Source of the DNA: Clytia hemisphaerica
Taxonomy: Eukaryota; Cnidaria; Hydrozoa; Leptothecata; Clytiidae
Assembly (NCBI GenBank): GCA_902728285.1
Contig: CACVBU010000292.1
Location: forward strand, 3,228,770-3,292,769
DNA length: 64,000 bases
Reading direction: 5' to 3'
The notes below the pieces were generated by a model. The model was not told the origin of the DNA, ran no database searches, and was given only the letters and a program-made list of their open reading frames with translations. Positions 42-8,477 of the stretch are shown in pieces (the stretch's first letter is position 1; every line of letters starts with the position of its first letter). Both the position numbers and the translations under genes were made by a program.

Positions 42-3000
42 CTTGGGAAGAATGAATCTTTTGGCTCGGTTCGTCTTGAAAAATTGGGAAGGCTGCAATG
101 AAAATCAAAACTGATCAAAATGAAAAGAAAGAAAATTCCTCAAATTGAATTAACTGGTTTCAAGATGCAACTAGAGGGCTGATGCATTTTTTATCAAGAT
201 AGCATATGTAACTAATTATGATTGATTGATACTTGATCTCTCGCAACGGCAGATTCAAGACAATAGAGCAAGTACATCAGAAACTTGCGAATGCAACGCT
301 CGTTAAAAGACAATAATTACAATTACAAGTCTCTTCCTTTGACAAGTTTGACATAGTCTAAAACCGCTGTCTACCCATAGTGTGCAAGGGGGTTCCAGGT
401 CCCACCTGAAAATTCAGGTCCCACCTTATCCTAAAATTCCCACCTTCAGCCCAGACTCCCAGATCCCAGCTAAAAACAAAAAAAATATACTAATTTGAGG
501 AACAAAACAAAACTTCTTTACCATAATATGAAGATGCAATATATTACATATGTTTAACTTTCCATTTGCCTATGACCTACATTAGGGGTAGAACTGGGTA
601 GAAACCAATCAAGTAGTCAGACGGCTTAGAAGTAAGTGTGAGTCGTTAGATATAAGTTTGGCATGAAATTATGGCTAATCCTCAAATAAGAAGTTTTGGG
701 GAAAATTTGTCCCGATAACTACAATATTAGTATAAATAAGTGAGGATTCGCCTACAACCATAACTGCAGGGAGGGAGGGAGGTAAAATATCTCATCCTGT
801 CAGCTTTCAGTTAGAGTGTCGACTTGAACAGGGAGATGTGATGGCCATTTTGAACATGACGTCACATGGCTATTAGCAAAGTAGACTCAGTTGGCGGAGG
901 GCACTTTTCAAACAAAAGTTAAACCGCAATTTAACCTATGTTAAATCCAAAATATATTAATATGTCTATTATATACATTTATGAAATATATAAAAAAAAT
1001 ATATCATAAGTCATAAAATCTGAAAATAAGAAACTTTACTTTAACTTTTTCCAAAACACCCAAAGTCCCACCTAAAGAAATTAACTCCCACCTTAACTTG
1101 TTTCTCCCACCTAAAACCTGGAAAACCCCAAATCCCACCTGAAAATTTTCGACCCAAATCAGCAAAACCCCCCCCCCACTATTCTGGGGGGGGGGGGGTG
1201 TGCACACTATGCTACCCGAAGGTAGGGGGTGCCACTCCTTTCCCTGATTTTCTCTACTTACCCTTAATCCGTCTCTTCAATTGCTGAGCATCAAGCAGAG
1301 AGGCATCAAGTACTATTTTGAGAATCTTTGGTATGACCCGGCTGGGGATCGAACCCACAACCCATAAAAATATCAAGGACTTAAATCCTATTTGATAGAA
1401 ATGTACCTTGTGATGGTTTGTCAGTTGGTTCGTCTTGGAATATTGGAAAAGCTATAAGTAAATTATAATAAAAATACAATATAAAGATAAGGAGATAAAA
1501 TATTGGAATATAAGGTCAAAGATCTCAATATGGGTTGCGTACATTTACAATTATATCTTGGACGAAGACTTCAACTTCAGAGTTTCAGCATTAAGGAAGA
1601 TTTCACTATATCAAAGAAAGGAAACTAATAAAAGAAGCTTAATAAAGAAGCTTAAAGAAGAAATTCTGAAAACATAGATCCAAAAATTTTCTGGCGTGTA
1701 AGAAGAAACCCAAGAGTATCGCTTCAATTGTAAATAAATAAAGAATATTCTCTTAATTGTTAGGGCTTGAAAACACAAGAAGTTTTTTTCACGTTGGTGC
1801 AATACAACATGCTCTATCCCACCAACACATGAAAAAAAGAAAAGAGAAATGGGGTGGGGACAAGAGAAAGCCGTACCTTGCGAGGGTTTTTCAGTTGGTT
1901 CGTCTTGGAATATTGGAAAACCTAGAAGGAAATGACAATGAAAATCGGTAAATCAGGGTAAATAAGAGAAGAGTGAGCAAAATATTAGAATTTTTCAAGG
2001 TCAAATATGTAACCATGGGTTGCGTACATTTACAATTATATACCTGACGAAGGTTTTGAAGACAGTTTTTGGCTTGGTTCATCTTGAAATATTGGGAACC
2101 CTAGAAAATATGAAAATGAAAAAAATTAGATCATTATTTATTATAAAGTATGAAAAGGTCAAGCGTATGAAATTGATCTATCAGGCTTTGAAGATAGTCT
2201 TTAGAATTTTTCTTTGACAAAGATGTTCTCATTTTCTCAACTTCAAGAAAAGTTCTTTCAAATACCTTGAGATGTTCCTTTCTCTTCGCCTTGATCATCA
2301 TCGAAAATAGAGAATCCTTGAAAAAAACAAGAATTAAAATTGATTAAAATGTGATTCGGGGTCACATTCAAATCCATGCACAATGGAAGAGGAGGCTTTT
2401 GAGAATTTTTTGTGGCTCACAGATTTGCATTGTGAAATCGAAATATAACTCAATAATGTCACTTTGAGCAACAGTCTCACCTGCTTGTTTCTGCATGAGC
2501 TGTAGGTTATTTTTCATGGAGTATTCGAACCTATCAACATCTAAAGTTTCTTGGAACATTTGTTTCACATTCTCAAGTGTCGGTGAAGAAGTTGCACCTA
2601 AGGTTTCGTTGCCAACCAAAGATGATGTTGCACCTAAAGTTTCGTTGCCAACCAAAGATGAAGTATTCCCTCCTGTAAAATAATTCAATTAGAAACAATT
2701 TAAAGAAGTGCTCTTTTAAACTTTCACTCTTTCTAGGTAAATATCATTCTCGAGATCAATCGTTTCGGTTATGATGATTTTCAATAGCCTCAATATACCC
2801 CGTCTCAATAAACCCCGTCTCAATAAACCCTGTCTCAACAAACCACTGTCTCGGAGAGTATTTTCCAAACAGTGTGGAATAGAATGATGGAAAAAATATA
2901 ATATTCTTTTATCTTTAGTCAATCAAAGGTGGGGTACCAATGCTTTGTTTTTTTTCACAACTCATAAAACACAGTAGAGATTTTGATTTAGCCTTAATGG

Positions 3001-6000
3001 CTCCTTAAAAGGTCTATGATTAGAGTGCGTGTTTCAACTTTACCTTCGACTTTCATTTTGAACATCATATTATTGATGGAATCACACGAATCGTTTTTCG
3101 AAGCGTTCTGTTGTCTTAACATGGAAATCCTTGAAGTATCATTTTCGTTGAATGATTGGAAAGCTCCTTGTTTATTGATGTTGGTAAAGGTAGAAGATGT
3201 ATCTCTGGTTTTATCCAGATCGTTCAAAATGTTGGTGGCGTTCATTGGCGTCCGATAGGGTTGACCGCCCGTTACTCCTTTCCCGAAGTGTGTGGTATCA
3301 TCCAATGCATTCAGTTGACAGGTCACGTTAGATCTTGGTTGCGACGAGAATGTTGAAGGTTTATTTGTTGAAAGGACAGTGTCGTCGATGGCTTGCAATA
3401 AGTGTGTTACGCCTGCTCTAGATTGCGTAGTCGATTGAGTGCGTCCAAATGGTGTAGTATCATTGAAAGTTTCTTGTGATGCTGATTTTGCGTTTTTCGT
3501 GTCATGTGGATCTTCCAGGGGAGGTGTTCTTTTAAATTGTTTAGTTTTATCCAGCTCTTGCAGCTGGCGAGTGATGTCTGTTTGTTTTCTATGCAAGGGG
3601 ATTGGTCTACCGAATTGAGTTGTGGCGTCTAGTTCTTGTAATTGGTTATCGATTTCACCTTGCTCTCTTATTGTTTTAGCAGTAGTGGGAAATCTACCAA
3701 ACTGTTCAGTCCTATCCAACTCTTGCATCTTGCATGTCAAATCCTCTTGGTCTTGGAGATTATTGGAGAAGATTTCAGTGATTCCCGTAATATCTGGTTG
3801 TTTAGTTTTCAGTGACCCAAAATAACCAGTACTTTCAATGGGCGAGTTGAATTCATCTTCGAGGTTCTGCAAAATATCACCAATGGTGTTGTTCTTAGCA
3901 CTGGATGGTGTACGGTTAATTGCTGGTTCTTGTGGTGTTCCTGGCAGTATTTGTTCTGTCGGTTCTGGTGTAAGGGATCTTGTTGCTGCTTGGTGACCAA
4001 AGTCCAAGGCTGATCGCACTATTTTTGGTCTAAAAGTAAAATGTTCGATATGTTGCTTCGGATGGCTAAGATGTGTTAAAAGTAATGCTGTATATGCCTA
4101 CATATTCGGAAACTTCGGTTAAAACGCTATCTTTGAGCTGGCTTAAATAAAACACAGATAGCTAAAATAACTTTGTATATTAGAAACATATTTTTCATTG
4201 ATTTTAACGAGAGGAATCCCTTAGATGGAAAATGAAGCCCTTATTTGCGATCCAAAATGCTTTACCCACGACGTTTTCACACAAACACCGGTTTGAAAGT
4301 AGAATCGGTTTAAAAAGCGTACCTAAATGAGTTAAATAGAATCGACTTGTAATACCTTTGTTCAGCAACAGTATCTTTCTTCTTGAACATATCATATCTT
4401 GGGAGTTGCGCTTTGATTTCTTCGAATGACATCTCTCTTGTGCCCATGTTAATGACATCTCTGCAATATTTGTGGATCACTTTCGGATCGTCAATCTATA
4501 CAGAAGAAGTTGATTTGTTTTGTGTATATTTTTGAAATATCGTTTGAATGCCTCGGGTAGCTAAACAACTGGAGAGTACGCGGGATGGAAGGGGAATCTT
4601 CCGAAACTTAATAACTGAGAGTTGGTATGAGTGTTTTGAAAAGAGATTGACAATTGGAACATTCAAAATCTTTGAAAAGCAAGCATATCCCATGTAGAAA
4701 ATTTATGTACTATTTAGTATTTTGAAAGAAAATAAAAATTAATGCACGCTCATGAAACGGGCGGATAATGCTCAAGGGTTAAAAATCATTTTCAAATCAG
4801 TCAATTATCACAAGAGAGGTCGAATGTGCTTTGCTTTGCACAGATCTTTACTCAATGGTCATTAAAACTTTGTGTAGGTGATAATCTGGGCGAATTATAG
4901 TTGTTCCCTCTACATTAAGGCGATGGCCGAACGGTCAAAGGCATCAATGTTAAAAAGGTTCGAATCACCACTCCTTCAAATGCTCGGTTATTAGATAGCC
5001 AAGACGGTTGGTCGAAAAACTATCTGAAAGTCTGAGATAACTGGGCTATCTACGCAAAATATCGACTCTTATTCATCTAGCTTAAGGTTTAAAAGCCTCT
5101 ACACCTTGGAAAGAACACTTGACTTACAGTTTTGCTGTAGAAAGGATCTTGAACTTCTTCACGTTTCTTCGAACTCAATGGTTTTCTTGAGCTGACGACG
5201 ATCTCTTTGGGTGTGGCAGCATGAATTTCAGTACTTTGTTCTTCTTCTTTGAAAATCTCAAACGCGCATGCTCCAGATGAAACTGACCCTCCTTTTACCT
5301 GCAAATAACCAATAAGAAAACTTAGCTAAATATGAAATTAAACAATTAAGAATCAAGTGTTCTACCAACTTAAACTGAAAATACCTGCAAATTACCAATA
5401 TCAACTATTAAATCACATTAATGATCTAAAGCTACTCTATAGGATCATTTTGAAGAGGAAAAAGTTAAGAGTTAAAGCTCCGCAATTTTTCAAATCCATT
5501 GTCAATTGATAACGGCTCAGATTGAAATCTCTTGAAATCTACACGGTACAAGGTATTGAAAGGGTGATAAAAATTTTGCTTTCCTTAATCAAAAAGCAAA
5601 TGTCAAATATAGCTTCTACATTTTGATAAAAGTTATGATTCACTTACTTTTGTTCCTTTCACTCTTTGCATCTGTTTGACATTCTCCCTATTATTGGTGG
5701 GATCCAAAGGATTGCTTTTCAATTGACCGGTTGCCGATGACAACATACCAGGGTTCGATTCGTCTCCGTAAATTTGGAATCCTCCCGATTGTCTATTTCC
5801 ACTTGGTTGCCGTGAAGAAGAGGTCAAAGAGCCAAGCTTTGTTCTTGAGCCTAAAATATAAATTATGTAATTTTGTCAAAGAGAACCTCCTTAAAACAAT
5901 TTCAGGGTTAAAACACATATAATGGAGAGAAATGAAATTTTACTTTGGTTTTTCATTCGGTCATTGCCAACTTTTCCAGACTTCATAGGTTTGAGGACGC

Positions 6001-8477
6001 CAAGAACTTTCCTGCTTCGAACCTTCTCCATTTCTTCTTCAACAGATTCTCCTGAAGCTCGTTTCATCATACGGTATTCAAATTCACTGGAAAAATAAAG
6101 AAAAAAACTTGCAAGTTTTATGAGTAAGATAATCAAGTTGCTGACCAACATCACCTTCCTACTTGAAATGTATGGATCCTCCTTTCAAAGAAAATGTCCA
6201 GCCAATTCACATTGATATAACCCTAACTAGAGATTTATCACAATGTTTCTCTAAGAGCCTGTCTGTAAGTGCTTAGGTTTCGAACACAGTCCATTGCGGT
6301 GCAAGTCTGTGATCGAAAACCTCACATTATTATCGATTGGCTTTTCAACTCCCGTTGGTTAAGTAAATAACATCGGTAAATTTTAAAACAAAGTAAAAGT
6401 TCCATTCAGAAGATCTAGGGCCTGAAGAAGTACTTAAATATAGTGCTTTTCATTATCCAAAACAAGCAAAAACTATTTTTCCCAGCTAAACTTTATCAAT
6501 TGCAACCAATAATACTGATAGACAGACCTATAAAATGCTTGTGACTAAAAAATCCTTACCTTTTAAATTCTTTCAACCAATCAAGGGGTTCAACATTTCG
6601 ATGAATTCCCAAGTTATAGATTTCATTTGCCTGCTTTGTTGATCCGATTAGTTCCAAGTGTTCAGCGTAACTTTTGTAAAAGCCAGCCAAAGATGTCCCA
6701 ATGTCGTTGTCCATCATAAACTTGAAAGTGTCAATTGGATCGTCCAAAATATCAGTCTAAAATAAAAATGGTAGAGTAAGAAGTGATCGCAACAATACTT
6801 TGATAATTCTTTTAGCCAAAAGCAAAACAGAGAGAGAGGAAAGAGAAAACCTTAGCCTTGGTGTAATACGAGTCTTAGCTATTGTTAGTCTAGATCAATC
6901 TTAATTAGAAAAAATAACTAGCAGTTTTGACCAAGTTGGACCACTATCATAAAAAAGTGAGATGTTCTATAAAAAGGGGTAAGTGATGTCTAACATTTCC
7001 TTAATCTAGTAGTAATATTTTTGTATTGAAAAATTGTCAAATTCTAATTGGATCACAGAGTTCCACTGAAAAAAAGGACTTAGTACCATCTTCAACCAGA
7101 GCTCAATATATGTTTCATTTTGATGGAATTCTTTCATATCTTTGTAATGAACCAAACAGTTTTGAAGCAATGTCACTGTATCTTTATTAATTCCTGTGTA
7201 ATTTTGCTCCCGCCAGCTGATGTATCTAAAAAATAGGGAATAACAAGTAATACTTTAATGGACCTACCTATTTATAAAACGAATAATCAGAATTTAATGG
7301 AAGTAATGTATAATTTTGGGCATTGCCATTTTACATCATTGTGCGAAAAATCATGAAAATCTGTCGAGTATAAGTTGAAAAAATGAAGGAAAACCGTTTT
7401 ACGCCGGTTTTCGCCTGTTCCGGCGATTTTTAAGGAGTTCCGGATTCAAAGGATGATTTTTTGGGAAATCAAACGATGCTAAGTTTTGGGCATCATCATA
7501 AAGAACATTTTTCTGTAAAGAAACAATTAAATAAGTTGAAAAAATGTGACGGAAATGTGAAAAAACGACGATTTCCGGCACATTTCCGGTTCTACAGACC
7601 GGAAAAAATTTTTTTCGGCAAACGGTTTTCGACACCTTTTCGGCAGTACTAATGTGCATCTATGTGCAAAAAATCGCAAAAAACTAATGATAAAATCTCG
7701 AGAAAATCTCAAAAAACCGCTTTTTTCGGGATATTTCCGGTTCTACCGGCCGGAAAAATTTTTTTTTCGAAAATTGGGCTCCGTCACATTCAAGGGTTTA
7801 TAGTAATGCACCTTTGTGCAAAAAATCAGAAAAATTGAATGAGCCAATCTCGAGAAAAGTTGGTAACTAACGAACGAACGAACGAACTAACTAACTAACT
7901 AACTAACAAACACGGGTTAATTTATAGGACCTCCACCCCACCGGGGTAGGTCCAAAAAGTGGGAGAAGAAAGTTTCAATAGAAAACGTCACCAAAAATGC
8001 AGAAATTAATTTCATCATTAAATTGCAAATCTATTGAGATATTTGTTTATGCACGATAGAACTAACCTATACCAAACATTCAATTTTTCTTGCTGATTCT
8101 CTCCAGTCTTTCTCAATTCAAGTTCGTAGCTTCTGTGAAAATGAAATTTTGTACAATATTAATATAGAGGGAAATATAAAGCGAAAATAAGTTCCAGAAA
8201 TTTCTTTCCAATTTAGTTCAATGAAAATTAGTAACCTTGAGGTAGGTAAGAGCATTGCCTTGAGTTTTATCATACAGTCTGTCTCCAATAGAAACCTTCA
8301 GAAATGAATGCAGAACTGTTTGTAAAATAAATATATAACATACTGTGCTTCATGATGTAAGTAGTTAGAATCCACTTGTAGAGCTCTTGTTAAATCACCC
8401 ATCCGTCGACCAGATTTGAGTGGTTGAACATTCTCTTTTGAAAGTTCCCATGCATTATCTACACCATCAACCTCCAT
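42..8477 (-). CDS. BUB1B: BUBR1/Mad3 spindle assembly checkpoint protein, 3' part beyond window
   Basis: Fifteen exons join in phase: 8477-8344, 8132-8067, 7225-7087, 6756-6560, 6086-5944, 5850-5648, 5298-5128, 4495-4356, 4029-3044, 2672-2481, 2316-2266, 2100-2044, 1921-1877, 1451-1407 and 92-42, all GT-AG (873 residues seen). Domains in order: KEN box in WELSKENVQPLKSGR (about residues 10-25); Mad3/BUB1 TPR region with YISWREQNY (45-179); ABBA motif FQIYGDE (251); REN where KEN2 should be (281); ABBA FEIFKEE (307); GLEBS, the BUB3-binding element, with MSFEEIKAQL (about 360-390); repeat-rich exon 9; ABBA-like FSIFDDD (792) and four FPIFQDE copies (809-858). Known family role: with BUB3, MAD2 and CDC20 it forms the mitotic checkpoint complex that inhibits APC/C. 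No kinase domain is visible; it could lie left of the window. An acceptor-like CAACAG just upstream of the ATG suggests a 5'UTR intron. KEN1 plus GLEBS favour BUBR1 over BUB1. Confidence 0.94.
374..1216. mobile_element. Foldback element with CATAGTGTGCA termini in BUBR1 intron
   Basis: The terminus TACCCATAGTGTGCA (374-388) recurs inverted near 1200-1216. Both ends carry adjoining G/C runs and CCCACCT-rich internal sequence; the right end has a C-run and a G-run that can form a hairpin (1168-1198). No coding capacity was seen. The rest of the intron 93-1406 shows no further exon I can support. Confidence 0.4.
1328..1366 (-). repeat. tRNA-derived SINE fragment (B box only)
   Basis: On the minus strand the stretch contains GGGTTCGATCCCCAGCCGGG, which fits a RNA polymerase III B box in a TPsiC-like arm. 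No full cloverleaf is present, so this is a SINE remnant and not a tRNA gene. Confidence 0.35.
1530..1605 (-). pseudogene. Degenerate extra copy of an ABBA exon
   Basis: Intronic sequence here repeats the 3' part of exon 12 (the AAGTCTTCGTC block) and its downstream intron (GGGTTGCGTACATTTACAAT on the plus strand). The donor GT has become AT and the FPIFQ-coding half is not recognisable. It looks like a duplicated exon that lost its splice donor and coding core. Confidence 0.5.
3190..3745 (-). repeat. Protein-level LDxTxxFGR repeat array in BUBR1 exon 9
   Basis: Within exon 9 (residues about 494-676 of the predicted protein) six to seven degenerate units of 19-32 residues recur. The clearest cores are MQELDRTEQFGR, LQELDATTQFGR and LQELDKTKQFKR; weaker ones are FNDTTPFGR, LQAIDDTVLS, LNALDDTTHFGK and LNDLDKTRDT. 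Most are preceded by a short [DNG][LIVA]T triplet (DLT, DIT, GVT, NVT, NAT). I do not recognise this array from BUBR1 in other animals. It looks like a set of short linear docking motifs in disordered sequence; the partner is unknown. Confidence 0.75.
4917..4975 (+). repeat. tRNA-Leu/Ser-like SINE head
   Basis: GGCGATGGCCGAACGGTCAA resembles an A box and D arm of a class II tRNA, followed about 30 bases later by GGTTCGAATCA, a B box. The anticodon arm is not well formed, so a SINE or tRNA pseudogene inside the BUBR1 intron is the best reading. Confidence 0.4.
7259..7954. mobile_element. Non-autonomous element, TGGACCTACC termini (copy 1)
   Basis: It begins TGGACCTACC and ends GGTAGGTCCA, a 10-bp terminal inverted repeat that may extend into flanking ACTTT/AAAGT. 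Near the right end lies an AACGAACGAAC/TAACTAACTAAC tetranucleotide tract, then CACCCCACCGGGGTAGGTCC. Sequence rich in CCGGAAAAA and GTGCAAAAAATC blocks fills the middle. It sits in the BUBR1 intron between exons 2 and 3. A second copy with the same ends lies at 28197-28773. No transposase ORF. Confidence 0.65.

Follow-up and report, generated by a model that had tools for sequence, protein, structure and literature searches.

An array of ABBA-motif mini-exons in a probable MadBub gene of the hydrozoan Clytia hemisphaerica

A BUB1/BUBR1-family gene of Clytia hemisphaerica contains 14 consecutive mini-exons (E11-E24; 42-111 nt each, every one phase 1-1) that encode 12 strict ABBA motifs, and its product has many more ABBA motifs than most of the relatives compared. 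ABBA arrays are already known elsewhere; what is new here is that symmetric mini-exons form such an array in an animal, within a MadBub protein (undivided BUB1/BUBR1) whose kinase is decayed. It is plausible that the array raises CDC20 binding, and we consider it somewhat probable that the array is a multivalent CDC20 dock that sits beside the Mad1-binding region and speeds assembly of the checkpoint complex.

The analyzed window is a stretch of 64,000 nucleotides (C207:3228770-3292769, plus strand). The gene lies on its minus strand; it starts at window position 8477, and its stop codon ends at position -8808 (C207:3219961), which puts the 3' half outside the window. Our model, for which left flank sequence was included, comprises 25 exons (E1-E25) and 1113 residues and ends at the start of the kinase-like part. 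The splice borders read AG at 24 of 24 acceptors (E2-E25) and GT at 25 of 25 donors, and the frame is open from end to end. E1 (8344-8477; this and all following window exons are on the minus strand) carries the start codon and KEN1 (ELSKENVQPL, residue 14), the TPR domain begins in E2 (8067-8132) and continues through E3 (7087-7225) and E4 (6560-6756), and E5 (5944-6086) contains the end of the TPR region and a putative D-box (RKVL, recognized by eye); all five exons are also present in the annotated protein P0001 described below. The ABBA1-KEN2-ABBA2 cassette is encoded by E6 (5648-5850; ABBA1 and the KEN2 position) and E7 (5128-5298; ABBA2), and E8 (4356-4495) encodes a putative GLEBS, a Bub3-binding stretch (MSFEEIKA) that aligns with human BUBR1. 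E10 (2481-2672) encodes a shortened CMI/CD1-like stretch (SPTLENVKQMFQETLD) in which, on alignment with Hydra, SPT and FQETLDVD are kept and the middle part is shorter than Hydra's. E25, to the left of the window (L005 6951-6741), encodes a KARD-like LxxIxE site (LSTIQE, residue 1066 of P0001, a pattern match only) and is followed by the kinase-like part.

Other repeated elements were seen in and around the gene. The long exon E9 (3044-4029) encodes a second array, of the motif LxxLDxT, with five copies by pattern and about seven by eye, often in the form LQELDxTxQFGR; shuffled sequences had a mean of 0.15 and a maximum of 3 (2000 shuffles), and elsewhere among the 139 family proteins compared there was at most one copy each. 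Within E10, coding sequence at window 2591-2661 is a 36-bp tandem duplication, and the preceding intron has a 15-bp tandem repeat at 2789-2852. To the left of the gene, at about -11843 to -15742 (L005, L006), long open frames resemble by eye a DIRS-type transposable element with reverse transcriptase and tyrosine recombinase.

The array begins in the window with E11 (2266-2316, FSIFDD), E12 (2044-2100), E13 (1877-1921, with intron sequence in common with E14), E14 (1407-1451), and E15 (42-92), the last four each encoding FPIFQD. The earlier note had reported these five mini-exons, and its exact span (42-2316) is borne out; all five have AG/GT borders and 1-1 phases. The sequences it gave are borne out as well, with FPIFQDE in E12-E15, FQIYGDE in E6, and FEIFKEE in E7, and E11 reads FSIFDDD. 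It had also suspected that the array might extend leftward and be followed by a kinase domain; E16-E24 (L005 9570 down to 7102) indeed add nine mini-exons with seven further strict motifs, and a kinase-like domain with decayed catalytic residues lies beyond them. With Fx[ILV][FHY]x[DE], the consensus from the literature, as the strict pattern, E18 encodes two motifs and each of E11-E17 and E20-E22 encodes one. The other three mini-exons have none: E19 and E24 show just a DMF core, and E23 reads FTIYNA. With the two cassette motifs in E6 and E7, the model holds 14 strict motifs. Chance can be dismissed as their origin, as 5000 shuffles of the model gave a mean of 0.12 motifs and never more than 3. 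In six-frame translation, 19 motifs occurred in window bases 9001-64000 and 13 in the 5.5-kb array region; isolated motifs are thus not rare in this AT-rich DNA, and it is splice context, not the motif alone, that decides.

A protein search returned the Clytia hemisphaerica record P0001 (1442 aa), annotated as 'probable inactive serine/threonine-protein kinase bub1 isoform X2'. The model and P0001 showed no mismatch over 1077 aligned residues. Their sole difference is the 36 residues of E15 and E16, which are missing from P0001. Twelve of the 14 mini-exons (E11-E14 and E17-E24) are therefore backed by the annotated isoform, which excludes misprediction for these, and isoform X2 has 12 strict motifs in all. 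Annotated gene models of this kind usually rest on RNA-seq. E15 and E16 are candidate exons read from the genomic sequence; when scored with a small position matrix built from the gene's own sites, E15 has ordinary splice sites and E16 has the third-weakest of 24 acceptors. Of the five mini-exons in the earlier note, isoform X2 thus includes E11-E14 and skips E15.

The gene had been called BUBR1. Membership of the BUB1/BUBR1 family is clear: PF08311 recognizes the TPR domain (8.6e-31), and human BUBR1 can be aligned over residues 8-392 (5.7e-35). Residues 204-259, which take in the putative D-box and ABBA1, match PF16500 (the APC/C-binding region of cyclin A) at 8e-8. The assignment to BUBR1 itself looks mistaken, as the protein is annotated as bub1 and no separate BUB1 was recognized. 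PF08311 has two matches in the Clytia assembly, both within this gene, and searching with a BUB1 kinase from coral produced 18 weak matches, none above 40 bits. No convincing second BUB1 kinase was seen among the seven inspected, of which the six strongest are other kinases by eye and one is the gene itself, in an assembly that may be incomplete. Because PF08311 is unique to the gene and no second BUB1 kinase was convincing, the gene looks like a single MadBub whose kinase has decayed and not like a dedicated BUBR1. The coral catalytic loop HGDIKPDN reads HCDLRPTK in Clytia (Asp kept, Asn lost) and HTNICLKN in Hydra (Asp lost, Asn kept), the coral DFG position is SFK in Clytia and GFY in Hydra, and the glycine loop is altered in both. 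We read the Clytia kinase-like region as a probable pseudokinase. Kinase residues kept in coral were lost in both hydrozoans (Clytia and Hydra P0002/P0003) by different changes, and a search for further relatives with the pseudokinase returned P0001 itself only.

For comparison we used 139 family proteins from two protein searches (the best 120 of 149 and the best 120 of 133 matches), mostly vertebrate and often near-identical, so that counts across the set are not independent. Among the proteins listed, only three have at least 12 strict motifs, and all are hydrozoan (Clytia with 12, Hydra with 12 and 15); the next-highest count is 6, in two proteins. The two Hydra records (P0002 and P0003, Hydra vulgaris LOC100198524) have an ABBA array at the matching place, with 14 and 18 units and strict motifs in 10 and 13 of them, respectively. 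Outside the array, identity between them is 93% on the N-terminal side and 97% on the C-terminal side. Like the Clytia protein, the Hydra protein is a hydrozoan MadBub with the array between a CMI or CMI-like stretch and the LxxIxE site and a decayed kinase; unlike it, the Hydra array, known here from protein records, has a near-uniform unit with a period of exactly 18 aa. Both genera belong to Hydroidolina but to different orders. The repeat tails look alike by eye (PSQ-KLSSKP in Clytia and PVQSKVPSKP in Hydra), but common ancestry of the units was not supported, as 85 of 300 composition-preserving shuffles reached the observed score in a comparison using 12 hand-typed Clytia tails, one per strict array motif, with E19, E23, and E24 omitted.

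Most vertebrate proteins listed have one to three strict motifs. Two salamander BUBR1 records (P0015 and P0044) have four each, with three clustered at residues 515-617 or 530-617, which may reflect a minor gain made independently. A metagenome protein of 1780 aa (P0029), possibly a chimeric record, is a MadBub with an intact-looking kinase and 10 MELT-like motifs ([ML][ED][LMIVF]T), of the kind found in KNL1, at residues 1212-1374, between the ABBA motifs and the kinase; shuffles of P0029 gave a mean of 0.34 and a maximum of 3 (2000 shuffles), and the rest of the 139 proteins have at most two. It would be unusual for a Bub protein to carry docking motifs for Bub3 itself.

The nearest precedents are the ABBA repeat arrays that Tromer et al. 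(2016) describe in MAD (BubR1/Mad3-like) proteins of Physcomitrella, basidiomycetes, and stramenopiles, in the portions of the article available (PMC5204127). They resemble the Clytia case in that a BUB1/BUBR1-family protein carries consecutive ABBA motifs. Going by that partial published description, Clytia differs in that the protein is from an animal and retains GLEBS, CMI-like, and kinase-like regions, with one or two motifs per symmetric mini-exon adjoining the CMI-like stretch. The words cnidaria, Nematostella, and Hydra are absent from the article's main text, and no earlier report of a hydrozoan array was found among the open-licence papers listed in our searches.

Several findings favor the dock: the 14 phase 1-1 mini-exons, 12 of them backed by P0001; the 12 array motifs that fit the consensus; docking residues kept under varying codons; the Hydra array; and, as described below, the conserved CDC20 residues and the arrest of Clytia embryos. 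Position favors it too. The array starts at residue 792, about 18 residues past the CMI-like stretch, and ABBA motifs occur near CMI in many species according to excerpts of PMC5204127. In human cells, as parts of PMC5472792 and PMC9605988 describe, CDC20 is recruited to kinetochores by the ABBA motif of BUB1, with Mad1-Mad2 put alongside by CD1 (CMI); human BUB1 resembles Clytia in having ABBA close to the Mad1-binding region but has one motif beside CD1, as against the 12 of the Clytia array. From this arrangement and the placement of the Clytia array, the array may be read as a multiplied dock. An ABBA site near the Mad1-binding region, as in many relatives, would have been multiplied by exon duplication into the 14 mini-exons. 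MadBub would be brought to kinetochores via Bub3, where the array could hold several CDC20 molecules, or rebind one repeatedly, beside Mad1-Mad2; CDC20 kept near Mad1-Mad2 would load faster onto Mad2, and the inhibitory complex would form faster. Since the exon phases are symmetric, single motifs might be skipped with the frame intact; isoform X2, which lacks E15 and E16, is an example. The binding, the number of CDC20 molecules held, the action at kinetochores, and tuning by splicing are parts of the model that we infer. The shortened CMI leaves it uncertain whether the Clytia protein binds Mad1, and it counts against the dock that E19, E23, and E24 have no strict motif and that E15 and E16 are missing from the sole isoform seen. 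Loss of ABBA was also less consequential than loss of CD1 in BUB1 (part of PMC5472792), and the checkpoint still works after deletion of ABBA3 in human BUBR1 (part of PMC5204127).

An alternative that we regard as unlikely is that the array acts in the finished inhibitor, where extra ABBA sites would tighten the checkpoint complex on APC/C-bound CDC20, perhaps offsetting a weakened KEN2. The Clytia cassette retains two ABBA motifs, FQIYGD at residue 251 and FEIFKE at 307. The KEN2 lysine is lost, the site reading REN at residue 281; it is IEN in Hydra and KEN in coral. In human cells the cassette ABBA motifs hold the checkpoint complex on APC/C-CDC20, which favors this alternative, but cassette spacing matters for that holding (both from excerpts of PMC5179498), and the array lies far from the cassette (residues 251-312) and near CMI. 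Owenia also counts against it, as the site likewise reads REN there yet the protein has no large array (5 strict motifs in all); the Owenia REN in addition weakens the KEN2 change as a hydrozoan hallmark.

Another alternative is that the array grew neutrally, in that phase 1-1 mini-exons would duplicate readily and harmlessly and motif number would mean little. The earlier note had inferred recent expansion from nucleotide and intron similarity between exons. When the 5.5-kb array region was compared with itself, five matches emerged, and only that between E13 and E14 (180 bp, 76%) reaches far into introns; the other four (42-72 bp) are mostly exon. The inference therefore holds for E13/E14, whose duplication looks fairly young, and fails for the rest, which look old from these matches. 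F1 and F4 are invariant at the protein level in all 12 array motifs, although F1 is encoded eight times by TTT and four times by TTC, and F4 six times by each. When the array copies were compared all versus all, and hence as non-independent pairs, pN was 0.04 at the docking positions (F1, I3, F4, and D6), with synonymous differences saturated, and 0.43 at the two free positions; pS exceeded 1 at the docking positions because such codons have few synonymous sites, and this denotes saturation and not a rate. Docking residues kept while their codons vary mostly rule out a recent origin for the expansion. Neutral growth would draw on the tolerance of symmetric phases for gain and loss, the unequal copy number of the two Hydra records, the skipping of E15 and E16 in X2, and the degeneration of some units, but conservation of the docking residues against saturated synonymous change makes it rather improbable, even though conversion between copies could contribute to that conservation.

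The presumed receptor is also present. Two multi-exon CDC20-family loci were found, L026 (C735), which reads as CDC20, and L027 (C294:935500-941500), which is more divergent by eye. Alignment of a fragment of Clytia CDC20 with the human protein (2.3e-107) shows identity at human R262, Y279, and I280, with positions numbered by way of chain offsets. The available part of PMC5179498 gives R262 and I280 as residues of the pocket and prints the tyrosine as Y179. ABBA motifs also bind CDH1. That the array serves a partner other than CDC20, such as CDH1 or an unrelated short-motif receptor, would draw on this binding and on the second family locus at C294, but it is the most doubtful reading, as the motif agrees with the consensus for CDC20 binding and CDC20 is conserved at the pocket residues compared.

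A bolder version of the multivalent dock, which we hold to be improbable, is that the checkpoint was rebuilt in hydrozoans: with KEN2 altered and residues of the BUB1 kinase gone, a spliceable ABBA array would have become the main strength setting. Each mini-exon would then be one more CDC20 dock and splicing a rheostat, which could, for example, keep the checkpoint of a large egg strong. Two-cell Clytia embryos (diameter 210 μm) show an Mps1-dependent mitotic arrest of up to two to three cell cycles, and sea urchin and mussel embryos likewise arrest (parts of PMC7290841). The Clytia arrest fits a strong checkpoint, but as the other embryos arrest too, a strong checkpoint is not Clytia-specific and the array is not shown to be its cause. 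The MELT arrays of KNL1/Spc105 offer a parallel in which the number of docking motifs is a possible setting of checkpoint strength; they involve another protein, motif, and partner (Bub3), as the sections available of PMC7292645 describe them, and an effect of number in Clytia is a prediction.

If no other BUB1 exists, the question arises of how hydrozoans manage without BUB1 kinase activity. Should checkpoint strength depend on how many CDC20 docks there are, the Clytia gene would be a natural graded series, with one motif in most mini-exons (two in E18) and all of them in phase 1-1; motifs could be removed exon by exon with the frame untouched, making dose against arrest length measurable, and Hydra, a second hydrozoan with unequal ABBA copy number between records, would add to the series.
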